Made by a program: the position numbers and the translations under genes. A stretch of DNA of 64,000 bases, taken from positions 163,584 through 227,583 of the IMG/VR virus record IMGVR_UViG_3300042359_000853; one strand, written 5' to 3'. Under the pieces are notes generated by a model. It did no database searches. It was not told where the DNA came from and was given only the letters and a program-made list of their open reading frames with translations. This DNA comes from a virus. This document shows, piece after piece, positions 3,841 to 53,028 of this stretch. Every line of letters begins with the position of its first letter. Position 1 is the first letter of the stretch.

Positions 3841-4407
3841 TTATCTAGAATAGTTAGGTGTTCTAGGCCCCTTTTTGCCCTCTTTTTCAACCTTTCTTTT
3901 ACGAGCAACAGATGCCTTTTTTTGTTTTTTTGTCATTTTAGCTGCTACTCTTACCTTACGACATTTTGGATATCCACCCCTCGACGCATCATCTCTACCA
4001 CATGGTGGATGTGATCCATCTGGATTTGTTTTAGAAATATCAACCCACTTTTCTTTAAACCACTTATCTAGACCACCGTGAGTATCTGAATAAGACCGTT
4101 TTTTTTCAAAGAACTGAGAATAGGATAGAATGTTATCTATAGATTCCTGTGTATTTTCTATTTGTTCTAGTTTATCGTAGTATTTCGGATCTTCCATCAG
4201 ATGATCAGTAGCTATTTCTCTAGCAATACTCTGGTCATCGGTGTGCTCCATTTCAACAGAAATACCCCTTTCTAGTTGCTTGTCGATCGTCTGATCTTCA
4301 ATAGGAAGATTGTGTTTCTTCTTGATATCTGCTAGAGTTTTACCATCGGATAGACCACCTGGTATTTTATCTTCTAAAAAAGATTGATATTTTAGAACGT
4401 CTTTCAT
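3841..4407 (-). CDS. DUF5661-like plus DUF5872-like two-domain protein
   Basis: 188 aa, function unknown. Residues about 50-80 hold VEMEHTDD...AREIATDHLMEDPKYYDKL, typical of the DUF5661 phage domain. Residues 112-188 hold a GGLDKWFKEKWVDIS...PCGR segment and a very basic tail, typical of DUF5872-type domains. Two copies of the recurring aromatic motif precede the domains: LKYQSFLED at residues 5-13 and ILSYSQFFE at 93-101. The start overlaps the stop of the upstream gene by 4 nt (ATGA). The basic tail suggests DNA or core contact (inference). Family names are from memory. Confidence 0.65.
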   Translation of the reverse strand: MKDVLKYQSFLEDKIPGGLSDGKTLADIKKKHNLPIEDQTIDKQLERGISVEMEHTDDQSIAREIATDHLMEDPKYYDKLEQIENTQESIDNILSYSQFFEKKRSYSDTHGGLDKWFKEKWVDISKTNPDGSHPPCGRDDASRGGYPKCRKVRVAAKMTKKQKKASVARKRKVEKEGKKGPRTPNYSR

Positions 4408-5195
4408 TTTTTGGATCTTGATTTTTTCTTACCCTTTTTCCAGCGACCACCCTTTTCTTTGTATCTTTTAGCTGCTGCTCCTACAGCATAGGCTGAAGGC
4501 CAAACTTCGTATCTTGATTTGGCCCAACTCTTACAAGAAGCCCAAAGAGATGGATTGAGAGGTATGTTTTTCTCTAATAAAAAACTATATCCAACACTTT
4601 CATTATGTTGTATGTAAAGTTTCAGCTCATCTTGAATAAACCCAACCGCCTCTTCTATTCCAGAAAAGTATAACTCTTCAAATTCATCGTCTAAGTCTTC
4701 GAGATTAGTAGAGAATAGTTTATGTATTCTCACTAGACCTTCTTCACGATTTTCATCTATGTTGATAACCCACTCATAATAATAATCAAGATCGAGTTCA
4801 TCGCTAGTATATCTAACTTTCACAACAATATCATCATCTTGCATTTCCCAATCGAATTTAGATTCAAGCCCTGAAAAAAGTTCAGAAAATTCAATCATTT
4901 TTTCTTTTAGATAATTAATATCTTGAGATATATCTTCATTTATTTGATAAAATTGAGAAAATTTGTAAACAATACCCTCTTCTATCTGTGATTGAACTTG
5001 GGTATCTAAAATTTCATATTCATCTATATCGGGAAGAAGAGCTAATTTACTACCAGAATCCCAATCTACAAAAATACTTCCCATATCATCAATATAACTT
5101 ATTTTTCCCTCATCACCACTTCTAAGTTTAGTATAGGGATCTTCCAGTCGTATAATTCTTACTCTTTTTCCTATTAAATTGTCTTTTTCTTTCAT
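4404..5195 (-). CDS. DUF4314-type protein with basic C-terminal motif
   Basis: 263 aa. Residues 7-62 match the DUF4314 pattern: GKRVRIIRLEDPYTKL, a DEGKISYIDD turn, then FVDWDSGSKLALLPDIDEY, an SH3-like beta barrel. Residues 76-88 hold YKFSQFYQINED, an internal copy of the recurring aromatic motif followed by an I-N-E protease-type site. The last 50 residues carry a W...KSRYEVWPSAYAVGAAAKRYKEKGG motif and a Lys/Arg tail common in large-phage hypothetical proteins. It is first in a leftward pair with the preceding two-domain gene. The role is unknown; an internal head protein is possible. Confidence 0.65.
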   Translation of the reverse strand: MKEKDNLIGKRVRIIRLEDPYTKLRSGDEGKISYIDDMGSIFVDWDSGSKLALLPDIDEYEILDTQVQSQIEEGIVYKFSQFYQINEDISQDINYLKEKMIEFSELFSGLESKFDWEMQDDDIVVKVRYTSDELDLDYYYEWVINIDENREEGLVRIHKLFSTNLEDLDDEFEELYFSGIEEAVGFIQDELKLYIQHNESVGYSFLLEKNIPLNPSLWASCKSWAKSRYEVWPSAYAVGAAAKRYKEKGGRWKKGKKKSRSKK

Positions 5196-5204
5196 ATCTG
5201 TATG

Positions 5205-5214
5205 TATATATATA
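5205..5214 (-). promoter_or_regulatory. TATATATATA promoter box
   Basis: A perfect ten-base TATATATATA lies about 9 nt upstream of the ATG at 5195 on the minus strand, so a transcript starting 6-7 nt after the box would have almost no leader. Confidence 0.5.
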
Positions 5215-5235
5215 TTTTTTGAAAAATAGTAATTT

Positions 5236-5243
5236 TATATATA
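5236..5243 (+). promoter_or_regulatory. TATATATA promoter box
   Basis: The box ends 5 nt before the ATG at 5249. With T4-late spacing the transcription start would fall on the start codon itself. Confidence 0.5.
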
Positions 5244-5248
5244 AACAA

Positions 5249-5935
5249 ATGATTACTACAAAAGATTTAGAAACAACATTCAAGGAAATATTCGAAACTG
5301 AAAAGGGGTTAGTTCAATCCATAGAAACTGTATTCGAATTATCAAGGGATAAAAGTTTTTACAAACTCGTAATTTCTATACATGGACTTTCTATCGAAGA
5401 TACACTTATTATTCATACTAAATTTATCTTCAAAACAAATTTAGAAAAAAACAAATTAATCGAAAACTCGTTTATCTATCTCTACGATATAAATTGTGAA
5501 TATCACAAAGTAGATTTTAGAAATATTATTGATCTTAGAAAAAAGATAGAAGATATTATTGAATCAAATGAGTTCGGAACAGATCTTCAAATACTCTCTG
5601 ATTTTATCGAGGCACCATCGATGTTCTTGAACTATTATCTTAAAAGAGCTAGAATAACAAACTACTCAATTTATGATGTTAAATATGATCCGAAATTTAA
5701 GACACTACCTTGTAGTCAAATAACATTTGATTTCAAGATAAATGTTAATAACGCTTATGATATTTCAGTTTCTATTCAGAAAAAAGAAAAAGAAGAGGTT
5801 GATGATATAGTGAGGTATAAATTCAGATTTCAATTTTTAGATAAAATCTTTAATAGAGAAACCGACACACTAACAAACATTCACTTTTTTATTGGATCAA
5901 ATATAGCAAAAACGCTCGATAAAATGATTAAATAA
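5249..5935 (+). CDS. Hypothetical protein
   Basis: 228 aa from the ATG at 5249 (MITTKDLETT). A frame extension to a TTG at 5219 would run through the promoter box and is not credible. The protein is rich in beta-strand patterns with Ile, Phe, Lys and Asp and has no signal peptide, membrane segment or motif I know. It stands alone between two promoter boxes, so it is probably expressed singly or with the genes downstream. Confidence 0.6.
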   Translation: MITTKDLETTFKEIFETEKGLVQSIETVFELSRDKSFYKLVISIHGLSIEDTLIIHTKFIFKTNLEKNKLIENSFIYLYDINCEYHKVDFRNIIDLRKKIEDIIESNEFGTDLQILSDFIEAPSMFLNYYLKRARITNYSIYDVKYDPKFKTLPCSQITFDFKINVNNAYDISVSIQKKEKEEVDDIVRYKFRFQFLDKIFNRETDTLTNIHFFIGSNIAKTLDKMIK

Positions 5936-5937
5936 TT

Positions 5938-5945
5938 TATATATA
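5938..5945 (+). promoter_or_regulatory. TATATATA promoter box
   Basis: The box starts 3 nt after the preceding stop codon and lies 22 nt upstream of the ATG at 5968. The leader between is A-rich. Confidence 0.45.
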
Positions 5946-5967
5946 CATAAAAATAAAAACTTCTACT

Positions 5968-6699
5968 ATGTTCAAACCAAATACCAATAACTATAGAACA
6001 AAATATTCTAAAATATCTCAATTTCATGATTTTACTGATAACATCTCATCTGAAAAAGATGATTTAGAAAGTGTAAAAAGAAGTTATGATCAAGATCATG
6101 ATTCAGATTATGAGCTACCTAATCTCTTCAAGTATAAATACAACCGTGTAACTCGAAAGATAGATGATAAAACGAAAGCTGAAGTTTTAGATGAGTTAGA
6201 AGAGATGCCAAATCCAAAAAAAGAAAAAGAATATACATTAGAACTTGAAAATTTAACTTCATTTGAGGATTTCGCAGATACACCGTCAAATGAAGTGAAT
6301 GAAGGACCAACTTCCTATATGTTTTTCAATAATCTTAAACTTATTCATAAACTTGTTAACGAAATGCTTACTTACGACCAAGAAGTAGTAAACTCTATTT
6401 TAGATCACGGTCACAACTGGGCCGAAGATCATATGTCAGTAGCAAAAGAAGCTATTTCTCATGTAAGAAACTATTTTGTTGGTGAAGTTGATGCTATCTC
6501 CGAATCTTACGAAGGTAACTATATGTTTTTCGGAAATCTAGTTTGTATTTCTGATATGATTGAAGAGATTATGGATAGAGATCCAAATAAAATTGACGTA
6601 GAGCTTAAAGAAAAACACGACTGGGCTGAAGATCATGTCTCAGCCGCTAAAGAAAATGTTACACAAGTTTATGATTTTCTAAAAAATGAAATTAAATAA
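5968..6699 (+). CDS. Hypothetical protein with internal duplication
   Basis: 243 aa. Near the start is YSKISQFHDFTD, a form of the recurring aromatic motif, followed by an acidic stretch. The C-terminal half is a tandem duplication of about 60 residues: YMFFNNLKLIHKLVNEM...HNWAEDHMSVAKE and YMFFGNLVCISDMIEEI...HDWAEDHVSAAKE. Each copy is probably a two-helix hairpin with conserved HxWAEDH. I do not recognise the family. The next gene begins 3 nt after the stop, so the two share a transcript. Confidence 0.65.
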   Translation: MFKPNTNNYRTKYSKISQFHDFTDNISSEKDDLESVKRSYDQDHDSDYELPNLFKYKYNRVTRKIDDKTKAEVLDELEEMPNPKKEKEYTLELENLTSFEDFADTPSNEVNEGPTSYMFFNNLKLIHKLVNEMLTYDQEVVNSILDHGHNWAEDHMSVAKEAISHVRNYFVGEVDAISESYEGNYMFFGNLVCISDMIEEIMDRDPNKIDVELKEKHDWAEDHVSAAKENVTQVYDFLKNEIK

Positions 6700-6702
6700 G
6701 AT

Positions 6703-8124
6703 ATGATTGATAAATATTCCCAGTTTTTAGCACAAAAACTCTTATTAGAATCTGAAATCAAATATTCTGATGGTTTTAGAAAGATATTATCTGATATTGG
6801 TGACCCAGTAAGTAAAACACTATCTTCTCTGGAAAATCAAGATATTAAAACGAATGTTAATTTTATTGATATTCTCAAAGATGATAAAGAGCAATTATCG
6901 TTTATTCAAGATAAAAAAGCTTCAACTCTTTTAAGTAAACTCAAAAATGAAATAGATGTAACTTGGAATGGACAGGGTGGAATACTCAAGAACAACGCGG
7001 ATAATGAAGATGTTTTTTCAGCTCTTGGATATGTTAGACCTGAATCCGGTAATCTTCCAAGACCAGCTTCTACACAAACCAGAGGAAAATTATTGAGAGA
7101 TACGATTTCACCTAAAAGTGGTAAAATCTATGTTCTTGTAAAGTTTGGTGATATGGAAACAGTTCTCAATAAAGAGTTCTTAAATTTTGTTGATAGATCC
7201 GATGAGATCTGGACCCAATCAGTTAGACAACCCATGCGTGTAGGAAGAGCAGTGACTGCTCTATTACAAAATGCACCTGTGAAACACACTTCGGTTGAAA
7301 TTGCTGATTTTGTAAATAGATATAAAACAAAAGTTGATGAACTAAATGACGTATTTAGATTTATAGAAGTTGTAAGTGGTGATGATATAGCTAAGTGGTA
7401 TCATGTAGAAAACTATGAAGAAAAATCGGGTGGTTCAGAACTTCACCGATCATGTATGGCAAGAAAATCAGCAGGTGTCTTTGAAATCTATACCAAGAAT
7501 CCAGAAGTTTGTCAGTTAATTATTCAAAAAAGTGAGAGTGATCCCGACAAAATATCCGCTAGAGCTCTTCTGTGGACTTTGAATAGTGGAAAAAAGTTTA
7601 TGGATAGAGTTTATTTTAATGATCCTCAGTCTATTGAGTTATTTAGAAGTTATTGTAAAGAAAATAATATATGGGCTAAATATAATAATAATAGCGGAGC
7701 TTTTTCATCTGCTATTAATCCCGAAAATGGATCTAGAGAAGAGATCGAAATAGAAGTGGTTCTTGAATCGAGGAAGTACCGTCAGTTTCCCTATATGGAT
7801 ACACTGAAGTTTTTTCATCCGAAAAAAGCAATTCTAGACAACTCACATGAGGATGATCCGAACTGGTATAAATTAGAAGACACCGCTGGTGATTATATAA
7901 GTCAAGAAGATCAGGGGTGTGATAGGTGCTACGGTGAAGATTATGTTGATTGTTGGGAATGTGATGGAACGGCTTATTCTAGTTGTGATAATTGTGACGG
8001 AGACGGTAAAGTTGAAGATGAAGATGGAACAAAAGTTGAATGTGATGTATGCAATGGTAGTGGCAGAATCAATTGTGATACTTGTGATGGGGATGGAAGA
8101 CTTACTTGTCCTGAATGTGGTTAA
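6703..8124 (+). CDS. Large hypothetical protein with C-terminal DnaJ-type zinc-finger repeats
   Basis: 473 aa. It starts MIDKYSQFLAQKLLLES, the recurring aromatic motif followed by L-L-E. The middle (about 245-330) has SCM, IYTKNPEVCQLII, ARALLW and KFMDRVY elements found in conserved large-phage proteins of unknown role. The last 70 residues hold six CxxC pairs (C406-C472), several as CDxCxGxG, like the zinc-binding centre of DnaJ but without J or client domains. It may bind zinc and unfolded protein or nucleic acid. If packaged, it could be an injected chaperone-like effector (inference). Confidence 0.65.
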   Translation: MIDKYSQFLAQKLLLESEIKYSDGFRKILSDIGDPVSKTLSSLENQDIKTNVNFIDILKDDKEQLSFIQDKKASTLLSKLKNEIDVTWNGQGGILKNNADNEDVFSALGYVRPESGNLPRPASTQTRGKLLRDTISPKSGKIYVLVKFGDMETVLNKEFLNFVDRSDEIWTQSVRQPMRVGRAVTALLQNAPVKHTSVEIADFVNRYKTKVDELNDVFRFIEVVSGDDIAKWYHVENYEEKSGGSELHRSCMARKSAGVFEIYTKNPEVCQLIIQKSESDPDKISARALLWTLNSGKKFMDRVYFNDPQSIELFRSYCKENNIWAKYNNNSGAFSSAINPENGSREEIEIEVVLESRKYRQFPYMDTLKFFHPKKAILDNSHEDDPNWYKLEDTAGDYISQEDQGCDRCYGEDYVDCWECDGTAYSSCDNCDGDGKVEDEDGTKVECDVCNGSGRINCDTCDGDGRLTCPECG

Positions 8125-9170: not shown

Positions 9171-9520
9171 TGGTGGAGGTGCTGGGATTCGAACCCAGGT
9201 TTCTACATTTACCTAAATAATCAATCATTCACAAGCTTAGAACTCTTTTCTAAGAGAACCAACTATCGGATTTTATCGAAGAACCTTCCGAAAAAACTTT
9301 TGAGGCTATTTATAGAGTTACCTCATTCTCGGAAACGTCTAGGCTACGGCCAATCTGTTTGCCTTTAGGATGTTGTTGCGTAGGGCGAATACTAAGTCTT
9401 CAACGCTTCCTACTTCATTCGTGTTGCCACTTAAAGTTTTCATACAACTTATGAATCGGTGAGTATGATCCGATGCTTGCTTGATTACCCGAATAAATGA
9501 GTCAAAAGCCATTCACCCCC
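9171..9520 (-). ncRNA. ssrA: Transfer-messenger RNA (tmRNA)
   Basis: 350 nt. The minus-strand 5' end GGGGGUG pairs with CACCUCC before an encoded ACCA end. The third pair is G-U, the alanine identity element. A T-arm CUGGGUUCGAAUCCCAG precedes the acceptor strand. Inside is a short open frame ending ...NNILKANRLAVA then UAG at 9341-9339, preceded at 9395-9390 by UUAGUA, close to the E. coli UUAGUC resume determinant. The tag is therefore about 15 residues starting near 9386 or 9389, with a degron-like hydrophobic end. tmRNA with SmpB frees stalled ribosomes and tags the product for proteolysis. No smpB gene is seen here, so host SmpB is presumably used. Confidence 0.93.
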
Positions 9521-19524: not shown

Positions 19525-19896
19525 ATGATCATCACAAAAGAAATACGGGTAAAAATTACCGAGCAAAATATAAATCACTTTGAGAATCTCGGATATGAAA
19601 CAGCACTGGGAGAAGAAATATCCATACCGGTTGAACTACTTACTTCGGGAAGTCATCATAGAATTCGTTGTAAGTGTGATAGTTGTGGTATAGAAAAAGA
19701 TGTTATTTACAAGAACTATATCAAATACGATAATAACTGGGGAGAATATAAGTGTAGAAAGTGCTCTGAGTCAAAAAGAAAAGAATCACTAAAGAAATCT
19801 TTAGGTGTTGAATATCCAATACAAAACATTGAGATAAAAAAAAGAATATTATCTCGTTCAAGTGGCACGAAAGTCACTTCTAAACAACTAGATTAA
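19525..19896 (+). CDS. Truncated homing-endonuclease-like zinc-ribbon protein
   Basis: 123 aa. After an alpha/beta start it has two Cys pairs (CKCDSCG and CRKC) forming a zinc ribbon, then KRKESLKKSLGVEYPIQNIEIKKRIL. That last part is a single copy of the 'x-GV-x-x-P-x-Q' repeat that is tandemly repeated in the two full-length endonucleases at 22.8 and 28.4 kb. The nuclease core is missing. It is best read as the N-terminal remnant of a third endonuclease, abutting the portal gene with a 4-nt convergent overlap. Confidence 0.6.
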   Translation: MIITKEIRVKITEQNINHFENLGYETALGEEISIPVELLTSGSHHRIRCKCDSCGIEKDVIYKNYIKYDNNWGEYKCRKCSESKRKESLKKSLGVEYPIQNIEIKKRILSRSSGTKVTSKQLD

Positions 19897-21599
19897 AACT
19901 CAAACTCTGTTCCGGGCTCTGGTGGAGTCTCAGTTCCACCTTGTGCTGGTGGTCCTTGTGCTGGTGGTCCTTGTGCTGGTGGCTCCTCTGTACCTGGTTC
20001 TGCTGGTGGCGTCTCTGCACCGGGTTCAGTAGCTCCACCCTCGGGAACACCACCCATATCCGGTGTTGCTTCTGATGAACCTTCTACTTTTTTATTTAAC
20101 CAATATCTTTCATTTTCATTTCTTTCTTCTTGAGAAAGACCATAGATATGTTCCATAAGATAATCAATATGGAAATAAGTTCTATCGTCTTTCATAAGAG
20201 AAAGAAGATTAGTAACAATAGATACTTTTTTATCCATATTTGACAGCTTTCTCCAATTCTCAAAAATTTGATTTACATTAAAAACAATATCACACTCATT
20301 TAAGAAAACTTCATCATCTTTGAGCTCGGGAAACTCCATACACATCTGAAGTCTTATGGGCTTAACGATGAGTTCTTTATAGATTGCACGAAGACGACCG
20401 ATAAAATTTCCAAATACAACTTCATCACGAGTCATCGAAGATATTTCTTCATAAATAGTTCCACCACCAGAGGTTTCATCAAATCTCTGAAAAGGAATTT
20501 TAGAAGCTGATTGAAGAGCTTTCTTAAAGTATCCAAGAATAACATCCTCGTTTAAGTTGTGACCTTGGGGTTGTTTAATTTCCATGGTAGGAGTTCCAGC
20601 ATCACTATCAGGAAACCAATATTGTTTGTTGTAGGGTAGATGTTTCGATCCACTAATCTGAAGAGTTCCTAGTGTATCATCCCATTCAACTTCTTCAGAG
20701 TAGTCAGAAATAAGTTGACCGATTTGCTCCTCTGCTCTTTGACGAGGAAGACCTTTCACAGGAATCGTAAATTGTTGATAAAGTGTAGCATTGATAACAT
20801 TGAACATTATTCTTGCTTGTTCAATAACTTTCAACTGGTTGTAAGGCTTGATAAGACCCTCAAGATAAGAAATCTCTGTGTAGTCGTTTTGTGTTGAATA
20901 AGAGATGAAGATTATCTGTGAATCAAGAAAAATTCTTCTTAGTTGTGGATCTTCGGGAAATTGAATCCAAAGATTTCCAATATTTGGTTCATAAGCTGGA
21001 ACTAATGTTTCCGGCTTTAATCTGTTGAAATGAACAACGTTTTGTTTTTTATCATCCCAAACAATTTCCATGGCTATGTAACCATCTATCAAAAAATCTT
21101 TCATTAGATTGAAAGCTGTTATGCCATCATTAAATCCGTATTTGTTATATATTTTCTCGAAAAACTCTTGATATTTATCTCTAATTTCTTGTGAATACGA
21201 GGCGGATATGTTTTTTGGTGTACAAAAATCTTTCTCACTATAAATAATTGCCTCTTCGGCTACTCTTGAAACATAATCTCTCAGGTAATCTTTGATCGAA
21301 TATTCACGAAGTATTCTTCTTTTATCAATATAAGCTCTATCAAGATAAGGTATTGATTTTTTGTTTAATACACTAGCAACTGCTCTTTGTGAGAAAAAAT
21401 CATAATACGATCCATCTTTTTGAGAATATGGATCCTCATTCATATTTACACCCACGGTGTTTCTTAAGATCATATCGTCGTATTTCATACCCCATGAACT
21501 CAAATTTCTTAAAAGTCGTGAGAAAAGACCACGATTTTCGACTGATGAACTCATTATCAGTCCAGAGCCTTCTCTATTTTGAGGATTGTATGATGCCAT
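19893..21599 (-). CDS. 20: Portal vertex protein, T4 gp20-like
   Basis: 568 aa, close to T4 gp20 (524). It forms the dodecameric portal through which DNA is packaged. Recognisable stretches are YWFPDSDAGTPTMEIKQPQG, EDVILGYFKKALQSASKIPFQRF and SSMTRDEVVFGNFIGRLR, all in the gp20 order. The C-terminal 60 residues are a Pro/Gly/Glu/Ala-rich disordered tail with a short GPPAQ repeat (near 19940-19980), an addition over T4. It is transcribed leftward from a TATATA box at 21622-21629. Confidence 0.88.
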   Translation of the reverse strand: MASYNPQNREGSGLIMSSSVENRGLFSRLLRNLSSWGMKYDDMILRNTVGVNMNEDPYSQKDGSYYDFFSQRAVASVLNKKSIPYLDRAYIDKRRILREYSIKDYLRDYVSRVAEEAIIYSEKDFCTPKNISASYSQEIRDKYQEFFEKIYNKYGFNDGITAFNLMKDFLIDGYIAMEIVWDDKKQNVVHFNRLKPETLVPAYEPNIGNLWIQFPEDPQLRRIFLDSQIIFISYSTQNDYTEISYLEGLIKPYNQLKVIEQARIMFNVINATLYQQFTIPVKGLPRQRAEEQIGQLISDYSEEVEWDDTLGTLQISGSKHLPYNKQYWFPDSDAGTPTMEIKQPQGHNLNEDVILGYFKKALQSASKIPFQRFDETSGGGTIYEEISSMTRDEVVFGNFIGRLRAIYKELIVKPIRLQMCMEFPELKDDEVFLNECDIVFNVNQIFENWRKLSNMDKKVSIVTNLLSLMKDDRTYFHIDYLMEHIYGLSQEERNENERYWLNKKVEGSSEATPDMGGVPEGGATEPGAETPPAEPGTEEPPAQGPPAQGPPAQGGTETPPEPGTEFEF

Positions 21600-22351: not shown

Positions 22352-22858
22352 ATGTTAAACCAAAAACCTACTAACACACAGAAATACCATCAAGGATTGT
22401 ATATTCCACAGAATCGTGATAAACTCATTAAAGCTAACAACGAAGGTGGCGTCTATTATAGAAGTGGTCTTGAGAAAAAAATGATGATCTATCTAGATCT
22501 TAATGATAAAATTTCAAGGTGGTGCTCAGAATATATTAAAATACCTTATGAGAAAACCGAATGGAGTTCTGTAAGAAAAGATTTTGAGACAACCCAACAT
22601 ACTTATTATCCTGATTTTTACTATGAACTTTATAAATCAGACGGTAGTCTTTCTAAAGTTGTAGCAGAGGTTAAACCACGCTCAGAAACAATTGAGCCAG
22701 TAATCAAGGAAAACATGACCTCGAAACAGATAAGAAATCTCGAATACAGCTTAAAAACATATAATAAAAACCTACAAAAGTGGAAGTATATGATAGAATA
22801 TTGTCAGAGAAAAGGGTTCGAGTTCATTATTATCACCGAAGAACATTTAGGAAATTGA
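22352..22858 (+). CDS. 4: Head completion nuclease, T4 gp4-like
   Basis: 168 aa, close to T4 gp4 (150). Shared features are QKYHQGLYIPQNRDKLI, the YRSGLEKKMMIYLD helix, RWCSEYIKIPY, YYPDFYYEL and VAEVKPRSET. The PDF...EVKP pair is the acidic/Lys nuclease signature of the PD-(D/E)XK type. Gp4 acts after DNA packaging, trimming or closing the head before tail joining. It is divergent from the preceding gene, and its end overlaps the endonuclease gene by 12 nt. Confidence 0.85.
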   Translation: MLNQKPTNTQKYHQGLYIPQNRDKLIKANNEGGVYYRSGLEKKMMIYLDLNDKISRWCSEYIKIPYEKTEWSSVRKDFETTQHTYYPDFYYELYKSDGSLSKVVAEVKPRSETIEPVIKENMTSKQIRNLEYSLKTYNKNLQKWKYMIEYCQRKGFEFIIITEEHLGN

Positions 22859-24364
22859 GGGTCTTTTCCAGATCCATTTATCTTGACCACATCCCCAAAT
22901 TCTATAATAATTTTGTGAATGCATGATTTGAACTTCAGTAAGTGTTGAATCATGGCCTAGACTAACTAATTTTCTTTTATTGTAACCAAACCGATGTTTT
23001 CTCAAACCATCGACCACCCACCAGTAGTTCAATCCACTATTCTTATCAAAAATGAATCCGAGTCTAGAATATACTTCACCAGAATATAGGGAAAGATCTG
23101 CGTAGGTTTTGATCTCTTCAATATTTGTGTTATTTCTGATAAAATATTCGAACAATCTAGATGCCGAACCAGTGACCTGATAATCAATACCGTTACAAAA
23201 TCTTAGAAGTTCATATTCTTTTTTTCCATTGATCCAACGAAAGCCAAAAGTCATTAAGCTTACTAATCTATCTTCATAAAAAAGACCCAACGCTGTTGAA
23301 TAGTTGGAATAACCTTGTATATGATTATCATTTAAAAACTTAGAAACTATTTCTCTTTGAGTTACCCCTTTAATTTGGCATTTTCTAGCAAATATTCTAT
23401 TTTTAGATTTTTTACATCTATTTAATAAAATAGATTTAAGAACTTCTTTTCTATTTTTCCAGTCATCCTCCCAGATATGTATAAGTTGAACGCCTCTTTC
23501 TTTACATAAGTTTGTTTTCGTGAGATGATAGTTTTTATCTTTTTTAAATTCACTATGCCAATAAAGTCTGTTGAACTCAATAGCGAGATTGTGATCTGGT
23601 ATATAAATATCAAGAAGTAGAGGTGAAATAAGATCTCTTTCACTAATTTTATGGTTGATTTCTTTTTCGTTTAGAAAAGAAGAAATTTCATCTTCAAATT
23701 TACTTCTATTGTATGATTTTATATTATCTCTTGAATGTTTTGTGTTCAAGTATGTTTCAACTCCGTATTTTATGAGGCAAGTTTGTTTTATTTTTTCTTT
23801 GACCTGGTCGAGTTCTAGCTGGTGATTGACGCCCCATCTTTCTAAGTAATATTTTTTTGTTTTCAATTTAAATTCTTCAGTCTTAAAGTAATGATCTGTT
23901 CCCCATTTTTCAAGTGCCGTTTTCTTGTATTTTTCTTGTATTTCTGGGTTTTGAAAACTAGATTTATGACCCCATCTCTCTAGGTTAGTTTCTTCCTGTC
24001 TTTTTTTGATGGTATCTGACTTAGAAACGTTATCCACACCCCACTTTTCTATCGAGGTATTCATTCTCTTCTCTTTTGTAGATTGATCTGTGGCTGAACA
24101 TTTTGCTGAACAAAAGTCCCTATATCCATCTCTCCAGTTACGGTGAAAAGAGGTTTTACTCCCACACTTACAAGTATAATACTTCGGTTGGTTCGATACC
24201 CAATGCCAAATTTTCTGGATAAAGGGTAAGTCTTCAATATTTTTACAAAAACTTACGATCTCTTTGTATAGATCAGAGAAATTATTTCTGAGGAAATTTT
24301 CTCGTAATCTAACAGAGTGACCTTGTGTGACTTCATTTATCTTATTTAATCTTAGTTCATCCAT
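22847..24364 (-). CDS. Free-standing homing endonuclease (Vsr-like PD-(D/E)XK, EDxHD type)
   Basis: 505 aa. Residues about 60-95 form a zinc finger (CKCGS, FCSAKCS). Then come about five tandem repeats with LERWG/LEKWG and GV-x-x-x-x-x-S elements (about 95-215), likely DNA-contact units. The nuclease core has LLDIYIPD, LAIEFNRLYWHS and LIHIWEDDW. The C-terminal part (KCQIKGV..., NDNHIQGY, LMTFGF, ELLRFCN, SRLFEYFI) is shared with the endonuclease at 28.4 kb. It sits between gp4 and the major capsid gene and is free-standing, not in an intron I can see. Confidence 0.8.
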   Translation of the reverse strand: MDELRLNKINEVTQGHSVRLRENFLRNNFSDLYKEIVSFCKNIEDLPFIQKIWHWVSNQPKYYTCKCGSKTSFHRNWRDGYRDFCSAKCSATDQSTKEKRMNTSIEKWGVDNVSKSDTIKKRQEETNLERWGHKSSFQNPEIQEKYKKTALEKWGTDHYFKTEEFKLKTKKYYLERWGVNHQLELDQVKEKIKQTCLIKYGVETYLNTKHSRDNIKSYNRSKFEDEISSFLNEKEINHKISERDLISPLLLDIYIPDHNLAIEFNRLYWHSEFKKDKNYHLTKTNLCKERGVQLIHIWEDDWKNRKEVLKSILLNRCKKSKNRIFARKCQIKGVTQREIVSKFLNDNHIQGYSNYSTALGLFYEDRLVSLMTFGFRWINGKKEYELLRFCNGIDYQVTGSASRLFEYFIRNNTNIEEIKTYADLSLYSGEVYSRLGFIFDKNSGLNYWWVVDGLRKHRFGYNKRKLVSLGHDSTLTEVQIMHSQNYYRIWGCGQDKWIWKRPSIS

Positions 24365-24455: not shown

Positions 24456-26114
24456 TTAGTTCAAGTATCCATTGGCGTCAGTAACGACCATAGTCATATA
24501 CTGCTTTTGTGGATACCAACCTACTTCAGTTACAGCGTATCTAGATCTTAAAAGCATTCTTGGTGCGAATGTAGCTTCTGAGATAATACTGATGGATTGT
24601 GCCATCAAGTAAGGAACAAAGATGATACCTGGTTGATCAGGGTTGTTCTTTCTTCCGATTACGATTCTGTTGTCGTTATACTTCATATAAGGATCAACAT
24701 ATACGGTGATATCACCAATTTGACCTACTGGGTAAAGCTGACCAGAACCACTCAATTTTGATTTTAGAGGGTTGATAGTATAACCAGCGATGTCCATAAG
24801 CGATGCAGCTAGACCTCCGTTTGTTACAGCGAATTGAGCTGGACCAACACGACCTTCTGTGGCTATGAAGTTAGATGCATGAACCATTTTGGTGATAAGT
24901 TTTCTCTGATAGGCGTGTGTTGTTTCACCACCTGGTGCGGTAGCATAACTTGTATTATAGTCGAAGATAGAAGCACCACCCCTTGTAGGAGCAGAAGTTC
25001 TGTTGAGGTTACCCATTTCGAAAATCTTAAATACAATTTGCTTAGAGATAGTCTGTGAAAGTTCATTCACAAGGATACTTTCCATTTTTTGAGTGATATC
25101 CATACCAGTGTTGGCTTTGATATCCTCAATTTCAGTTCTTCTAAGAGCTGATGATACTTCAATTGTACCTACAGCAACCGACTTAGTAGAAACTTTTGGT
25201 CCGATTACACCTGCGTATGAGTTGTCATCGTCACCACGACCCATTGGGTAATCACCAGAAGCAGAAGCTCCTGTCCAGTTTGCTGAGAAACCAGGAATGT
25301 GATCTTCAAGTGCTGAAACAAGTTCAACAGTAACACCAGATGCAGTTACACCAGCGATGTTACGAATTTGAGCTGCGATAGTAGCAGTTGGGCCAAATGT
25401 GTTTTTTGCTTGATCATATACGTTTAGAGATGTGAATGCTGACAAATTAGCCGAACCAACAGCGTTTGTTTGTCTGTAGGCTCTGAACATTGGGTATCCA
25501 TCGATACGTGAGAAACCTAAGAATTCAACAAGACCTTCTTTATTGTCAGAAGCAGCAGGTATAGCTTGAGTCATAGCTGTAGAGTTGAATACATTATCAA
25601 AAATTCTACCACCGGATAGACCACCAGTTGTTTCTGTGATGGCTGGGCTAGCACCTGCTAAAGAAGCTGTGATACCTGCTTTGATGGCATCCAAGTTTGA
25701 GGCATTAACCTTGAAAACTTGTGGTCTGCCTTCATTTTCTTCATCTACATCATCGTATCTGAAATCGATGAATAGAAGTTCAATTCTTGGGCCAGGGGTT
25801 GGTTTTACAGCTACAAGGTCAAGACCGATTGTTTGAGCTGCGATTTTCATAGCAACTGGTAGTAGATTCTGAGCTACGTCACCCGAACCAGGAGTTGCGT
25901 TGATGGTTTGACCAGCGAAGCTGGCTGGGTTTGGAGCTAATACGCTACCCATACCTTGAATACCTGCGTTTACGTAGGCATTTTCATTGATTGAGTGATA
26001 TTCAGCATATTCTGACATCCAACCCAAACGTTCACTATCTGTGACACCCATGTTCTCTAGAACAGGAGACCACTTCTTAAGTGCTTTTTGTGAATCAATT
26101 CTTATGTGAGACAT
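24456..26114 (-). CDS. 23: Major capsid protein, T4 gp23-like
   Basis: 552 aa (T4 gp23 has 521). The gp23-type start and the long Ala/Gly/Thr-rich body with ILVNELSQTISKQIVFKIFEMG, HASNFIATEGRVGPAQF, YVDPYMKYNDNRIVIGRK and PRMLLRSRYAVTEVGWYPQKQY are characteristic of the HK97-fold myovirus capsid. A prohead protease site (I-N-E before N) is visible at residues 42-44, which would release an N-terminal propeptide of about 44 residues and leave about 508. It has its own promoter box and terminator, as expected for the most abundant protein. Confidence 0.93.
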   Translation of the reverse strand: MSHIRIDSQKALKKWSPVLENMGVTDSERLGWMSEYAEYHSINENAYVNAGIQGMGSVLAPNPASFAGQTINATPGSGDVAQNLLPVAMKIAAQTIGLDLVAVKPTPGPRIELLFIDFRYDDVDEENEGRPQVFKVNASNLDAIKAGITASLAGASPAITETTGGLSGGRIFDNVFNSTAMTQAIPAASDNKEGLVEFLGFSRIDGYPMFRAYRQTNAVGSANLSAFTSLNVYDQAKNTFGPTATIAAQIRNIAGVTASGVTVELVSALEDHIPGFSANWTGASASGDYPMGRGDDDNSYAGVIGPKVSTKSVAVGTIEVSSALRRTEIEDIKANTGMDITQKMESILVNELSQTISKQIVFKIFEMGNLNRTSAPTRGGASIFDYNTSYATAPGGETTHAYQRKLITKMVHASNFIATEGRVGPAQFAVTNGGLAASLMDIAGYTINPLKSKLSGSGQLYPVGQIGDITVYVDPYMKYNDNRIVIGRKNNPDQPGIIFVPYLMAQSISIISEATFAPRMLLRSRYAVTEVGWYPQKQYMTMVVTDANGYLN

Positions 26115-26188: not shown

Positions 26189-28318
26189 TTAGATACTTTT
26201 GAATCTTTCTAGTATAGATCCGATTTCTTTTTCACTTAGTCTATCTTCTTGAATAAGAGCTTCGTGAGAAACTAACTTCTTAGAAGTTTGTTCTTTTTTG
26301 AATTGTCTTGTGTTCCAGAAGTGTTCAACTTTAAGTTCAGAATCAAGTTCTGGATAAAGTTTAGCTTGTGAAATAATCGATTTCTTACTTGATTCATCGA
26401 TCTTTGTCCAGATTGGCTTTATGTTATCAGGCATCAATCTGATTAGTCTTTCTTCTAAAGACTCGTTTTTGGCCGATAGAGCCTCGTTGATTAGTCTTAA
26501 AACCTCACCACCAGTAAAATAACTTCTTTCGTTTACATAAAGTTTTACTGTTTCCTGCTCTTCATTTGTAAGATTGTGGAAACTATCTACTTGTGTTTTG
26601 TTAAGGAATTTTAAGAAATTCAAATCATTATTCTCAGAAACTTTTCTTTTTTTAGCTTCTAAAATCAGTTTATCTATTTGTTTTGATAATTTAGATTCAT
26701 TGTAAACAGGGTTCTCTTCTTCTTCGAGTGGATCGGTTTCGATAGTATCTTCATCGTAACCACACTCCTCACAACCTTCTGTGTCCATATAGTATGCAGA
26801 AGTTGATTTTGGAAGATCTCCTTTCATTTTGCCATACATCGGAAGTTCTTCTTCTTCGTTTGGTTCGTCTGTTGGCATTTCATCCATAGCAACTACCTCT
26901 TCTTCTTCAAATCCGAAGTCTTCAAGTGTTGGAATAATTTTACCACCTTTTGATTCATTGATTCTTGAACCATTTAATTTTTCTGAAATAAGTCCAGCAT
27001 AAGAAATTGTCTTATCAACATTTTCAGCTAGATACTCAGAATAAGCGATGTTATCATCTAGATGCTCGGCGATGTATTCAGAGTAAGCGATGTTACCATC
27101 AAGGTTCTCAGCGATATACTCAGAATAAGCAATAGAGTTATCTAGATTTTCAGCTAGATATTCAGAGTAAGCGATGTTTGTATCAAGGTTCTCAGCAATA
27201 TACTCTGCGTATTTGATACTACTTTCTAGATTCTCAGCAATGTATTCTGAGTAGGAGATATTTCTATCCAAGTTCTCAGCTAGGTATTCTGAATAAGAAA
27301 TATTTCTATCCAAATTCTCGGCTAAATATTTAGAGTAAGAGATATTTCTATCTACGTTCTCAGCTAGATACTCAGAGTAAGAAATGTTCTTGTCTAGATT
27401 TTCGGCTAGATATTCCGAATAGTTGATTGCTTTTTCTAGATTTTCGGCTAGGTAATCGTTGTGAGAAATGATTTTCTCAGTTTTTGTTCTCAAGTCTTTG
27501 TTTTCATTAACAACAACTTGAATTTTCTCAGCTAGATAATCTAAATATTTAACTACTTGGCCGTTAGTCTTATTAAGTTCTTCATAATACTCAATAAGTT
27601 TTTCAACTTTCTTAGGTTCAACACTACCTTTGGTGATAGCTGTTTTTACCTGTTGCTTTGTTGAAGCGATTTCATTAATTAGATAATTAGAATAGTCCGT
27701 GAGTTGTCTTTTTGTAACAAATTCATTTTTGTTCATATTAAAAAGTTCATTTATTTTGGACTCGTTGGATACTTCGTATATCCTAAAGTTGCTTTTATTA
27801 TTAAATCCTAGGGATTCATTGATCGAAGACATACGAGCTGATGCAAATCCAGGATCTGCTACGATATCGTAAGTAAATAGTTTCTTGAGTGTTACTGATC
27901 CGTCGGATTCAGTAATACCAGCTGCTCTTGAGGAAACAAAGATTGGGCAACCATCATCAACAAGTGACTTAGCTTCTTTACCCCAATAAGTAGAAAGTAG
28001 TTTAATTCTACCATCAACTCTGTTTTCATTTTTGAGATATTTTGCCTCTAAAACAAGGTGTGAAGCTCTAGAAAGAGATGTATCAAAAACATCTGGGTGA
28101 TCAAATTCGCCATAGACGACACCCATGTTTTGAATTCTTTCTGTTAGTTCAGTTAAGGCCGGAACGAATTTATCGGCTGTGTATATCCTCTCATTTCTGT
28201 TCTTTTTATCGAACTCGGTGAAGATACCACCTAGAACATAACTGTTTTTTTGTGATGTTGCACTCTCATTGACCTCTAAAGGATTAGTGTTGTTTTCAAC
28301 AATTAATATTGGTTTCAT
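26189..28318 (-). CDS. 21: Prohead protease gp21 fused to a repeat-rich scaffold-like arm
   Basis: 709 aa, over three times T4 gp21 (212). Residues 25-175 are the protease: GGIFTEFDKKNRNERIY, VYGEFDHPD (His), SHLVLEAKYL, then SSRAAG (Ser) and TYDIVADPGF. The rest is scaffold-like. Residues about 275-450 hold eleven tandem 14-residue repeats of consensus YSEYLAENLDRNIS with degenerate copies at both ends, then an acidic region and a helical C-terminus. Every repeat has L/I-A-E-N, matching the (L/I)-x-E site cut by such proteases. No separate gp22-type scaffold gene is seen, so one protein may serve both roles. Confidence 0.85.
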   Translation of the reverse strand: MKPILIVENNTNPLEVNESATSQKNSYVLGGIFTEFDKKNRNERIYTADKFVPALTELTERIQNMGVVYGEFDHPDVFDTSLSRASHLVLEAKYLKNENRVDGRIKLLSTYWGKEAKSLVDDGCPIFVSSRAAGITESDGSVTLKKLFTYDIVADPGFASARMSSINESLGFNNKSNFRIYEVSNESKINELFNMNKNEFVTKRQLTDYSNYLINEIASTKQQVKTAITKGSVEPKKVEKLIEYYEELNKTNGQVVKYLDYLAEKIQVVVNENKDLRTKTEKIISHNDYLAENLEKAINYSEYLAENLDKNISYSEYLAENVDRNISYSKYLAENLDRNISYSEYLAENLDRNISYSEYIAENLESSIKYAEYIAENLDTNIAYSEYLAENLDNSIAYSEYIAENLDGNIAYSEYIAEHLDDNIAYSEYLAENVDKTISYAGLISEKLNGSRINESKGGKIIPTLEDFGFEEEEVVAMDEMPTDEPNEEEELPMYGKMKGDLPKSTSAYYMDTEGCEECGYDEDTIETDPLEEEENPVYNESKLSKQIDKLILEAKKRKVSENNDLNFLKFLNKTQVDSFHNLTNEEQETVKLYVNERSYFTGGEVLRLINEALSAKNESLEERLIRLMPDNIKPIWTKIDESSKKSIISQAKLYPELDSELKVEHFWNTRQFKKEQTSKKLVSHEALIQEDRLSEKEIGSILERFKSI
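26985..27470 (-). repeat. Tandem 42-bp coding repeats in the gp21 gene
   Basis: Eleven to thirteen imperfect copies of a 42-bp unit, in frame, encode the 14-residue repeats. Copies differ at many third positions, so the repeat is kept at protein level and is not a recent DNA expansion. Confidence 0.85.
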
Positions 28319-28396: not shown

Positions 28397-30103
28397 CTAC
28401 TTATTCAAGATCCATTTTCTGTTACCACAATTCCAAACTCTTGAGTATCCAAGTTCTTGTGTTATTTGCTCTTCTGTTTTGTTTGGATCAGCTCCTTTTT
28501 TTACAAGTAAGTGTTTTCTATAGTTGAAACGATGTTTTCTAATACCATTAACAACATACCAATATCCGGGTTGTGATTGTCCTGAATAGTCAAAACCCAA
28601 TGTTTCGTATAGTTCTCCCTGAGAAATCATATTATCTGAGTAGGTTTGTATCTGTATCCAAGAATAGTTGTTTTTAAAGTGTTTTAGTAATTTTGAGGCA
28701 CTTCCTGGACAACTAACATAATTTTTGTTACAAAATCTAGTTAGTTCCCATATACCTTCACCACCTTTTCTAGAAATAGGTAATCTTATTTTGGAAAAAC
28801 ACATAAGTGATATTAGTTCGCCTTCATAATACAATCCTAATCTTACAGAAGATTTACAATCTCCTTGTAAATGATTATCTTCTAAGAATTTTTTTGATTC
28901 TAGATAGAGAACTTCTCTTATCTGACATTTTCTAGCCCAAATACGAGTAGTTGGTCTTTTCAACTTGTTTAAAATGAAAGATTTCACGATATCTTGTTTG
29001 GTCAAATAATCATCTTCCCATATAGTATAAAGTTTTATTCCTAGTTTTTCACACACTTTCATTTTTTCTAGATGATAATCTTTGGACTTGAATCTAGATG
29101 AGTGCCAAAAAACTCCATTAAATTCAAATGCAATTTTAAGATCTGGTAGATAAAAATCAAGCTCTTTGGGATATATTACTGATTTATCATTCATAAGAAC
29201 TTCGCCATCAAAATTTTCCTGAAATATTTTTAACAATTCTTCTTGTTTTAGTGAGATAGTCTCACCTATAGGATGGCATATAGTGCATATAGGTGTTGAA
29301 TTTTTTACTCTTGTATAGAACTGATAGGTTAAAATATTGAAATTCTTAAAACACTTATTACAACCAAAATGTAGCGAAGTAGTATCTGTATCTTTATCAA
29401 ATCCAAGAAAAGTATAGTCTGATGGATTTATTTTTTCTTCAATTCTATCTCTATAGTTTTTGTAAAACTCGAAGATTGTTTTTTTATGAACTTCTGGATT
29501 AGACCAGGGGTGTTCTGTACCCCATCTTTCTATAGACGTTTTTTTATAGGATTCTTTCCAGATCTGGATGTTTTCTTTGAAACTTTCAACTCTTTTATCT
29601 AATATATCTCTATTCTTTGATGGATTATCAACTCCCCAATTTTTGATAAGTGTTTCTTTTGATTTATTTTTAACCACATCACTAGACATAGGTGAATTAC
29701 CGCCCCATTTGGTTTGATTAGTTTGTATTATCTTGTTCCGAATGGTCGGGGATTCACTTGGTGTTTTAGTTCCCCATTTTTCAAGTGAATTATTTATTTT
29801 TTTATTTTTTACATTAGGATCAGAAGAAATACATTTTGTAGAACAATATGAAATATATCCTAGAGTTGAATTTTTATATTTTGTAAAATTCTTACAATCA
29901 TCTCTTTTACATTTTGGTTGAGTAGTAATTCCGTGATATGATAAGTAAACCTTTTCTTTGAACGGTAAGTCATTCAATCCATTTTCTTTGCAAAAATTTA
30001 AGATAGCTAAATAATGATCCGGATAGTGATATTTGACATAAGATTCTTTTGACATCTTACCTGAACTATCATTTTTTAATAAGTTGCCTAAATCTTCTAA
30101 CAT
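28397..30103 (-). CDS. Free-standing homing endonuclease, second full copy
   Basis: 568 aa. Architecture matches the 22.8 kb protein: zinc finger (CKRDDCKNF, YCSTKC), four to five tandem LEKWG/IERWG repeats, nuclease core ELDFYLPD, IAFEFNGVFWHS and YTIWEDDY, and C-terminal CQIREV, EDNHLQGD, ELTRFCN, SASKLLKHF. It has an extra inserted segment with CNKC and CTIC pairs before the core. It lies between gp21 and the sheath gene, with its own box and terminator. Sequence divergence from the first copy is large, so they are separate invasions or an old duplication. Confidence 0.8.
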   Translation of the reverse strand: MLEDLGNLLKNDSSGKMSKESYVKYHYPDHYLAILNFCKENGLNDLPFKEKVYLSYHGITTQPKCKRDDCKNFTKYKNSTLGYISYCSTKCISSDPNVKNKKINNSLEKWGTKTPSESPTIRNKIIQTNQTKWGGNSPMSSDVVKNKSKETLIKNWGVDNPSKNRDILDKRVESFKENIQIWKESYKKTSIERWGTEHPWSNPEVHKKTIFEFYKNYRDRIEEKINPSDYTFLGFDKDTDTTSLHFGCNKCFKNFNILTYQFYTRVKNSTPICTICHPIGETISLKQEELLKIFQENFDGEVLMNDKSVIYPKELDFYLPDLKIAFEFNGVFWHSSRFKSKDYHLEKMKVCEKLGIKLYTIWEDDYLTKQDIVKSFILNKLKRPTTRIWARKCQIREVLYLESKKFLEDNHLQGDCKSSVRLGLYYEGELISLMCFSKIRLPISRKGGEGIWELTRFCNKNYVSCPGSASKLLKHFKNNYSWIQIQTYSDNMISQGELYETLGFDYSGQSQPGYWYVVNGIRKHRFNYRKHLLVKKGADPNKTEEQITQELGYSRVWNCGNRKWILNK

Positions 30104-40715: not shown

Positions 40716-42617
40716 TTATTTTTTAATAAACTTATATATTTTTTGTTTTGTTCCTGTAGTTAATCTAACAAAATATAAGCCTGGCTTAAGAGTATTTGTT
40801 TCAATTCTTCTAGTGACGGTCTGATCTTGTGCTACAAACTGTGTTTCAGCGCTGTGTAGTTTTCCAGATAGATCGTAGATTTCTGAAGTTAGATTGTCTG
40901 GTGTTGTTTGAAAATAATCTACATACATTTCATCTACAACTGGGTTTGGATACACTCTGAAACCATTTACAAGTTGATCTACAAGATCTCTAGCTCTTCT
41001 ACCGTTTACGATTGTAGCATCGGTTGGTGAAGGAATGATATTCAAATCTTGTGCTTTATCACTACCAGCTGCTTTATTGATTATTTGTATAGGTGATTCT
41101 TCCCAGTTATTGTTTAGGATTTCAAATTTGAAGTTAAACATCTGAGTTGGATTAGTGATTAGAGAAGGTGACATTTTTGATTCGTGACCACCCCATAGAA
41201 TTTCACCTGTTTTCGATGAGATAAATGAGTTCCAAGCACTTGCCTCTTGTCCTACATTAACACCTACAAATTTAAAGATTTGAGGATTGTATTTTAGACC
41301 GATTTGAGAAGCACCTACTTTGTTACCATGTGTAATAAGTGTTACATTAACATCAACGGTATTATCACCAGAAATAGTAAGTTTAGGTATTCTAAACTGA
41401 ACTGAATCTTTGATGTTTTGGTAGATCATACCTTGATCAAGAACATAAGATGTTCCAGATGTGCCGGTGTTAAGTCTTTGTATTTGAAAAGAAACGTTAT
41501 TAAGACCCGTTCCAGTAACGTCACCAAGAACATATCCAAGATAAGTCATTGAGCTCATACCATTAAGTAAGAGATCTACGAGAGTTGTTCCGATGATCGA
41601 GGTTTGAAAAGTGTTAGGGTTTGTTATTATTGCATCAAATTCTGCCTGAGTATAATATCTAACATTGTATTCGTTAGCAACAACTGGTGACCAAGTCGTT
41701 CTTCCGGTAGCTAGACGATTAAATATAAGATACGCGTCAGAAACCGAAATTGAACCACTTCTGTTTACGTCAGCTTGTTGAAACTCATAAGATTGTGCTG
41801 TGTCAGCATAAATACTCATATCAGAAAGACGATAAGCATCTGTGATATTGATAGCTGAGTTATCAGAAAGTGTATCTAAATTTGATACTAATTTCACGTC
41901 ATAGAAAGAAGTATCGTAAGGTATTTTGATACCAGCAATACCAAAGGTGTTGGTAGTGAATCTTTGACCTCTTTGATAAGCTTGTGCTGACTTTAGTTTA
42001 TAGTCAAAGGCAAATGGCATTCCACTTGCAGGAGTTCCATCAACATTTAATACCGATACTGGTATTAAAAGAGTATCCATCTGAAATCTACCACCAAGAT
42101 TGTAAGTTCCTAGTGTGTTATCAATACCACTTGTAGTTGTAGCGATATTGTTGTAGGTTGGTGTTCCAGTGACTCTAAGTGAGTCTACAGATGAAGGATT
42201 GAAACCAACATTATGTGGAAGTAAAACCTCGAATACTGCGCCATCTGGCCAATCAAAAACAGCCGAAGATCCGGTGTAGATGGCTGTTGCATTTACCCAA
42301 CCTGGTTGTGAATAATAAGAACCATATTTGGTGGATATCGATGTTGTTGTAGGCCCCCATTTAACAATTGGTTGTTTGAATGAAGCCTGTGGATAAAAAA
42401 ATCTAACCTGAAAACCAGCATAGTTTGTAAGGGTTGGATTGTGATAGTGAAGATAAACTTTAGTAGTATCTTGAAGAATACTACCAAGTGTAAACACAGT
42501 GTCGATAATAAAGTGTGGAGAAGATGAGTTTGGTGATATCAAAACTTCATTTCTACCATTTTGGCCGAACGCATTGAGCGTTATTAGGGCAAAAAGCCCT
42601 ACAAGAAACTTTTTCAT
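40716..42617 (-). CDS. Exported cohesin/dockerin protein with T9SS sorting domain
   Basis: 633 aa. A signal peptide ends NAFG before Gln. Residues about 285-305 hold a dockerin-type element (ADVNRSGSISVSDAYLIFNRL). Residues about 405-520 look like a cohesin-type beta sandwich (VNVTLITHG, SQIGLKYNPQIFKFVGV, then MFNFKFEIL). The last 80 residues are a type A T9SS/Por C-terminal sorting domain: VYPNPVVDEMYVDY, SEIYDLSGKLH, LKPGLYFVRLTTG, YKFIKK. Such a domain directs export through the Bacteroidota-only type IX system and is then removed. This is strong evidence for the host phylum and an unusual phage cargo. Confidence 0.85.
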   Translation of the reverse strand: MKKFLVGLFALITLNAFGQNGRNEVLISPNSSSPHFIIDTVFTLGSILQDTTKVYLHYHNPTLTNYAGFQVRFFYPQASFKQPIVKWGPTTTSISTKYGSYYSQPGWVNATAIYTGSSAVFDWPDGAVFEVLLPHNVGFNPSSVDSLRVTGTPTYNNIATTTSGIDNTLGTYNLGGRFQMDTLLIPVSVLNVDGTPASGMPFAFDYKLKSAQAYQRGQRFTTNTFGIAGIKIPYDTSFYDVKLVSNLDTLSDNSAINITDAYRLSDMSIYADTAQSYEFQQADVNRSGSISVSDAYLIFNRLATGRTTWSPVVANEYNVRYYTQAEFDAIITNPNTFQTSIIGTTLVDLLLNGMSSMTYLGYVLGDVTGTGLNNVSFQIQRLNTGTSGTSYVLDQGMIYQNIKDSVQFRIPKLTISGDNTVDVNVTLITHGNKVGASQIGLKYNPQIFKFVGVNVGQEASAWNSFISSKTGEILWGGHESKMSPSLITNPTQMFNFKFEILNNNWEESPIQIINKAAGSDKAQDLNIIPSPTDATIVNGRRARDLVDQLVNGFRVYPNPVVDEMYVDYFQTTPDNLTSEIYDLSGKLHSAETQFVAQDQTVTRRIETNTLKPGLYFVRLTTGTKQKIYKFIKK

Positions 42618-52392: not shown

Positions 52393-53028
52393 ATGAAAAG
52401 TTATGTAGCTAGATTTGATTCTTACCAAAAACAAAAAAGAAGAGAAGATATCATCAAAGAATCGGTTCTTCAAGTAAATGATATTTACAAGGTGAGAACC
52501 ATGGTTGATATTCCACAGAGTCTTATCAACGCTTATGTTAAAAAAGTAAAAGATGTTACTGGTAACAATCTTAGACAATTTTTCGGTGATGTTGATATCG
52601 CTGAAGAAATAATCAAGCATATCAATCTTAATTATTTAGATGCTGATAAAATTCCAGCAAATGCTTTGATGGGTGGTCCATCACAAACACAAACACAGAC
52701 ACAAGGACAAGCTCAAGGACAAGCCCAGACACAAGCACAACCACAAGCCCAGCCACAAGCACAACCACAAGGACAATCCCAGCCACAAGGTCAAGCTCAG
52801 GGACAAGTCGAGCCACAAGGTCAAGCTCAGGGACGACCACAAGCCGAGCCACAAGCTCAACCACAAGCACAACCAGAAGATGAAGGACAATCACAGGGTC
52901 AAGTTCAAGTTCAAACCCAAGTTCAAGGACAAGGCGAGCCTGAAGATGAAGATTTTGAAGATCTAGAAGATGAAGAAACTGGTGAAGATGAAGAAGAGAG
53001 AGAAGAAGATACGGAAGAACTTCCTTAA
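52393..53028 (+). CDS. Gln-rich repeat protein with acidic tail
   Basis: 211 aa. Residues 1-95 form a helical domain that begins MKSYVARFDSYQKQ, loosely like the aromatic start motif. Residues 96-180 are a repeat of Q-x dipeptides with Ala, Pro, Gly (QGQAQ, QAQPQ). The final 30 residues are nearly all Glu and Asp. The acidic tail suggests a scaffold or a DNA-mimic role (inference). A terminator follows. Confidence 0.6.
   Translation: MKSYVARFDSYQKQKRREDIIKESVLQVNDIYKVRTMVDIPQSLINAYVKKVKDVTGNNLRQFFGDVDIAEEIIKHINLNYLDADKIPANALMGGPSQTQTQTQGQAQGQAQTQAQPQAQPQAQPQGQSQPQGQAQGQVEPQGQAQGRPQAEPQAQPQAQPEDEGQSQGQVQVQTQVQGQGEPEDEDFEDLEDEETGEDEEEREEDTEELP
52680..52930 (+). repeat. CA-rich hexamer repeats coding Gln-x
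   Basis: Imperfect tandem CAAGCN and CAAGGN-type units run through the tract. They produce long false frames on both strands. Confidence 0.8.

Follow-up and report, generated by a model that had tools for sequence, protein, structure and literature searches.

The window analysed here (64,000 nt; positions 163,584 to 227,583 of IMGVR_UViG_3300042359_000853) is the end of a 227.6-kb virus record, and its head gene cluster contains a 709-aa open reading frame which joins a gp21-type protease to a long repeat arm. The features of this locus are as follows, with arrows marking candidate cleavage sites:

19893..21599 (-): portal protein (gp20-type), same head gene cluster, from a profile match
24456..26114 (-): major capsid protein (gp23-type), next gene downstream of the fusion, from profile matches
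25980..25991 (-): likely capsid processing site INE44↓N (...HSINE↓NAYV)
26189..28318 (-): gene for the fused gp21-type protease, repeat arm, acidic linker and C-terminal helical domain, 709 aa, ATG start
27821..28318 (-): gp21-type prohead protease domain, residues 1-166, from profile matches and the motifs GEFDHP and SSRAAG
27812..27823 (-): INE168↓S, a conserved site at which the protease may be cut from the arm
27755..27790 (-): synonymous sites conserved immediately upstream of Met195, AACTTTAGGATA...TCC..GAGTC
27734..27736 (-): codon of Met195, a putative in-frame start of translation, from conservation and start-like context
26189..27736 (-): predicted nested scaffold-only open reading frame, residues 195-709, 515 aa
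26966..27469 (-): repeat arm, residues 284-451, made up of twelve 14-residue units with a hydrophobic-x-E in every one
26951..26962 (-): possible cleavage site INE455↓S, right after the arm
26699..26965 (-): acidic linker, predicted to be disordered, residues 452-540
26189..26698 (-): C-terminal all-helical domain, residues 541-709, a separate open reading frame by the capsid gene in phage PAU

Two related DUF7487 genes (22847-24364 and 28397-30103, both on the minus strand), likely encoding free-standing homing-type endonucleases, flank the protease-capsid pair.

The nearest records to the window came from uncultured phages, 634, 636, 642 and 735 kb in length. In a 2020 survey of phages, the four largest complete genomes all fell in the Mahaphage clade, for which Bacteroidetes hosts were predicted (PMC7162821), and the window phage is a member of this lineage. 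A search of viral contigs found 578 relatives, 80 of which were retained. In nearly all complete relatives among these we observed the same architecture and synteny: a protease, approximately 12 units, an acidic linker, a helical C-terminal domain and then the capsid gene, which starts approximately 20-220 bases past the fusion gene. A distant second clade comprised 22 loci, mostly approximately 40% identical to LR756500. The Lak phages also possess a protease fusion, in which repeats are absent; homology of the Lak C-terminal region to the window family appeared plausible by eye in the alignment, and was rejected because the match of this region by itself was not significant. The fused gene of Prevotella phage Lak-B2 has in-frame stop codons that are read through, in agreement with the reported alternative coding of Lak.

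The original prediction that the 709-aa product is a gp21 homologue was confirmed by its N-terminus, which matched PHROG 207 'head maturation protease' (E=2.6e-29), and by the family profile, which matched the crystal structure of T4 gp21 (5jbl, E=6e-5). Pfam Peptidase_S77 scored 17.3 bits on the N-terminus, below the cut-off of 27. The GE[FL]DHP and S-S-R motifs were invariant (compared in 7 and 20 relatives), and the catalytic His and Ser of this family would lie in the GEFDHP and SSRAAG motifs. Judged by profile, structure match and motifs, the N-terminal domain belongs to the T4 gp21 prohead proteases (S77). Directly after this domain (I/L/M)NE↓S is conserved, with N167 and E168 invariant, Lak included.

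The arm consists of tandem units in register, of the form I-x-Y-x-x-Y-(I/L)-A-E-N-(L/V)-D-x-x (an example 14-mer is NLDRNISYSEYLAE). It had been described as eleven repeats, each with L/I-A-E-N. Eleven units do carry (L/I)AE, but there are twelve in total, the twelfth with ISE↓K, and the residue following (L/I)AE is N in ten units and H in one (residue 418). One extra LAE↓K is present at 264, out of register. The array is not a product of chance, since identity within the arm at lag 14 is 0.70, the whole protein has 31 (L/I)xE sites compared with 15.4 +/- 3.3 in shuffles, and the same array is found in nearly all of the 80 contigs, most of which have 11-14 units. The arm itself has 12 (L/I)xE sites where shuffling gives an expectation of 4.7, and Tandem Repeats Finder detected the array at the DNA level (27000-27415, score up to 370). 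A structure prediction of the repeat (long helix or coiled coil) had been proposed as a check, and AlphaFold placed the arm within a near-continuous helix (199-449), together with strands in the protease, disorder at 450-537 and a helical C-terminal domain. This model of the full protein was mostly of low confidence (mean pLDDT 55), and was dropped from fold searching as too weak. The family profile also weakly matched the designed coiled coil 8qkd.

T4 gp21 cuts after L/I-x-E, and gp22, gp67 and gp68 are cleaved into fragments (PMC9026906; PMC5694885). When units were detected without using the tested position and position 9 was then counted, this position was Glu in 96% of units and Asp in none, the lowest entropy among the 14 positions. 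On a helical wheel it lies approximately 155 degrees off the hydrophobic face, i.e. on the predicted polar side, and position 2, its mate on the helix, varies more than any other position of the unit. In the distant clade, in which the units of the 22 loci were counted purely by 14-residue register, position 9 was Glu in 71% and Asp in 1%, with Ala before it down to 23%; the acidic positions 5 and 12 alternated between Glu and Asp, and position 7 stayed aliphatic. Some units depart from the strict L/I rule, with Val at P3 in 16%, and in 34% of those from the distant clade. The likely capsid processing site had been noted to share its P1 and P1' residues with the repeats, and this held across the relatives: N was the commonest residue after the arm Glu (49%), and capsid proteins had (I/L/M)NE↓N in nearly all Mahaphage relatives read; in the second clade, most had LYE↓N. 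This pattern of conservation supports recognition of hydrophobic-x-Glu rather than helix packing alone, and supports the repeat Glu serving as a P1 residue of the protease. We infer from this conservation that the protease probably cuts the arm, as had been proposed, and the cuts may fall every 14 residues.

In nine T4-like phages from several groups (121Q, GAP32, BF, Munch, PA5oct, S-H38, P-SSM2, Campylobacter NCTC12673 and Rhizobium Y68), portal, protease (~210 aa), scaffold (~250-385 aa) and capsid are encoded in this order by separate genes. In the window lineage, one gene fills both the protease and the scaffold slots, and the capsid gene is directly next. The claim that no separate gp22-like gene is present nearby was extended to complete genomes and stood for the families tested: gp22-type PHROG 237, 10922 and 23627, and PAU gp152 (labelled scaffolding), were unmatched in the four complete relatives of 634, 636, 642 and 735 kb, and also in LR756500 and Lak-C1, in a search that did recover the records carrying those genes. 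Neither the arm nor the C-terminal domain showed significant similarity to Rak2-type gp22 by BLASTP or hhalign. A tblastn alignment that extended from the separate protease of 121Q-type phages into their scaffold gene was rejected as gp22 homology, since the scaffold alone gave nothing. The fusion is gp22-like by position (as a fusion) and by character (helical, (L/I)xE-rich), and not by sequence.

Separate gp22 proteins were themselves enriched in (L/I)xE, with 24 sites in 121Q compared with 6.8 expected (z 7.6) and z values of 6.7 for GAP32, 4.0 for PA5oct, 3.0 for S-H38 and 3.8 for Campylobacter; the Rhizobium scaffold was the exception among the scaffolds compared. Density per 100 aa was 7.1 in the arm, 6.5 in 121Q gp22 and approximately 1 in capsid proteins, which were hardly or not enriched. 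Scaffolds of the gp22 type are in general rich in (L/I)xE, and the unusual properties here are the fusion and the strict 14-residue period. The arm is very probably an assembly scaffold, because it stands where gp22 would be encoded, the four complete relatives gave no match to the gp22 families tested, and its conserved Glu is P1-like. The assembly core of the original prediction is indirectly supported on these three grounds, with the qualification that site richness is shared with separate gp22.

The C-terminal domain modelled by itself gave a pLDDT of 73.5, and a fold search of the PDB with it returned no match. In a library of viral models, its top matches included proteins annotated as T4 prohead protease or prohead core scaffold. 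Two cultured Tenacibaculum phages, pT24 and PTm1, gave significant matches to the domain (hhalign E ~3e-6), in both as part of a fusion with the protease. In Sphingomonas phage PAU its homologue is a separate open reading frame. It comes straight after gp155, which resembles a coiled coil and is rich in (L/I)xE, and the capsid gene follows. This unannotated frame (7050-7310 of the PAU segment examined) is -1 relative to gp155 and follows it at a GCAAAAAAAAAGTAA run. Runs of this type are of the classic -1 slippery kind; the C-terminal domain may be added by programmed frameshifting, unless the shift is a sequencing error. In Flavobacterium phage MaF61, a 1405-aa protein (3902-8116 of the segment examined) has a gp21-like protease start and many LNE/MNE motifs; it is possibly a further fusion, with the capsid gene not adjoining.

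Two other readings of the arm were weighed against a cleaved scaffold. The arm could be a permanent structural coiled coil carried by the protease, a length-setting or anchoring rod in which LAE serves helix packing and is left uncut. Fourteen residues are exactly two heptads, a long helix is predicted, the weak 8qkd match is to a coiled coil, and a unit number near 12 in most relatives is ruler-like. However, the most conserved position is the exposed Glu, which is not swapped for Asp while positions 5 and 12 swap freely, and cleavage of T4-type core proteins at sites of this kind is established (PMC9026906); we consider a permanent rod unlikely. The arm could also be a targeting or auxiliary extension of the protease, with an unrecognised separate scaffold encoded elsewhere in the genome. 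Scaffolds diverge fast, so that a novel family could escape searches with the tested families, and propeptides have been proposed to target T4 gp21 itself (PMC9026906). Nevertheless, the fusion sits in the scaffold's place beside the capsid gene, more than 500 residues far exceeds a targeting tail, and in PAU the C-terminal domain is encoded where a scaffold would be, which makes this second reading very improbable.

At the protease-arm boundary, Met195 was kept in 70 of 71 aligned relatives while its neighbours vary. We scored its context with a matrix trained on 573 genes of these phages, which separated starts from internal Mets with an AUC of 0.96 and mainly reflects A/T richness. On average Met195 scored 3.6, real starts 5.8 and internal Mets -7.2, and the start-likeness of Met195 lay at the 98.5th percentile over 78 relatives. 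Among 24 conserved internal Met columns from seven gene families, Met195 alone had a mean above 0.9. The distant clade has a Met at the equivalent place (percentile 0.84-1.0) with different surrounding residues. Synonymous recoding upstream lowered the score in most cases, from an observed mean of 3.4 to 2.0 for Met195, whose mean percentile was 0.73 compared with 0.44 for other internal Mets; the segment SKINELFN uses A/T-rich codons anyway. Since the fusions of pT24 and PTm1 lack a Met at this boundary, the nested start is not universal within the fused family.

In T4, approximately 576 copies of gp22 are present compared with approximately 100 of gp21 (PMC5694885). A scaffold-only product makes sense, as a T4 head requires gp22 in several-fold excess over gp21, and the predicted Met195 start would yield free scaffold, solving the copy-number problem of a 1:1 fusion. 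This nested start is a new prediction, absent from the original one, and the context of Met195 suggests that a separate 515-aa scaffold is probably also made from it. We regard it as somewhat unlikely that only the full-length fusion is made, with protease and scaffold at 1:1 and Met195 an ordinary residue. The absence of an equivalent Met from pT24 and PTm1 would fit such a gene, as would a start score that is largely A/T richness over a segment whose codons are A/T-rich regardless, but the Met is nearly invariant amid changing flanks in two distant clades, synonymous choice is shifted in a start-like direction, and lambda C/Nu3 and herpesvirus UL26/UL26.5 provide precedent for a nested product.

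In the conserved stretch just upstream of Met195 (27755-27790), the rare codons AGG, ATA, TCC and GAG are retained across diverged relatives and are lost en bloc in several lineages. A candidate RNA hairpin in this stretch (codons 177-188), whose pairs are kept, was rejected because no covariation signal was detected and RNAalifold predicted no structure, and a general promoter or RBS was ruled out by the single occurrence of the element in the window. The element could function in regulation or be a target of the flanking endonucleases.

With T4 gp21/gp22 the window gene shares the protease family, Glu at P1 with a hydrophobic P3, a scaffold predicted to be fragmented and a position by gp23; it differs in that T4-like phages have protease and scaffold as two genes, and in that the gp22 proteins read were without 14-residue repeats. 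T4 gp21 has an internal start at Met45, inside the protease (PMC9026906), whereas Met195 lies at the protease-arm boundary. The 'prohead core scaffold' genes of pT24 and PTm1 have the same fused protease, arm and C-terminal module, with the capsid gene next, but the repeat of the PTm1 arm is a different one (lag 16/32, KELSEGIEKWI) and the pT24 arm has little periodicity. In PAU (gp151, gp155 and the unannotated frame) the domain precedes the capsid gene as here, but the protease is separate. Lambda Nu3 is made by a nested start. This scaffold gene overlaps C, according to a reference cited in PMC8508860. In lambda C/Nu3, as in the protease-scaffolds of P2 and Mu, one gene gives both protease and scaffold, although these proteases are of other families. 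None of them is known to have periodic Glu sites. Herpesvirus UL26/UL26.5 (assemblin and scaffold) combines a protease-scaffold fusion with a nested same-frame scaffold. UL26c contains the whole of UL26.5, as PMC2949831 states. Here the likeness is in general plan only, as cleavage specificity and scaffold differ and the virus is eukaryotic. By this comparison, the window gene would work like T4 gp21 plus gp22, encoded in the manner of lambda C/Nu3.

We therefore favour, as the probable reading, a single protease-scaffold gene which gives a full-length and a nested product and whose periodic arm is cut at hydrophobic-x-Glu. In the full-length 709-aa product, the gp21-type protease would enter the prohead core attached to a scaffold of its own, and the Met195 product (515 aa), probably the more abundant, would provide protease-free scaffold. 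The scaffold would be a helix of approximately 250 residues, the last two thirds of it formed by the twelve 14-residue (two-heptad) units, followed by the linker and C-terminal domain. Once the shell is complete, the protease would cut after the Glu of hydrophobic-x-Glu sites: a cut at INE168↓S would probably free the protease, INE↓N would be cut in the capsid propeptide, and cuts in the arm would reduce the core to short peptides and make room for DNA. A more specific version, which we offer tentatively as a possibility, is that the nested-start gene of a T4-type head encodes, besides the protease, a self-consumable rod of about twelve near-identical steps, every step a cut site; its length, near-constant among relatives in this lineage of huge phages, may set core size before the rod is chopped to 14-mers. 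The locus provides a concrete candidate in the lineage of the 2020 survey's four largest complete phage genomes, and suggests that a T4-type protease, too, can be fused to its scaffold, (probably) with a nested start, an arrangement known from lambda and herpesviruses. Because pT24 and PTm1 are in culture, the fused form can be tested at the bench.

Three other loci in the window were noted. A tmRNA (9171-9520, minus strand; Rfam RF00023, 65.3 bits) has an unusually long predicted tag, GNTNEVGSVEDLVFALRNNILKANRLAVA. A CACAAG-like tandem repeat is present at 52682-52879, with long open frames on both strands. A 633-aa protein (40716-42617, minus strand) matches cohesin, dockerin and a Por secretion-type C-terminal signal, which is unusual for a phage and in line with a Bacteroidetes host.
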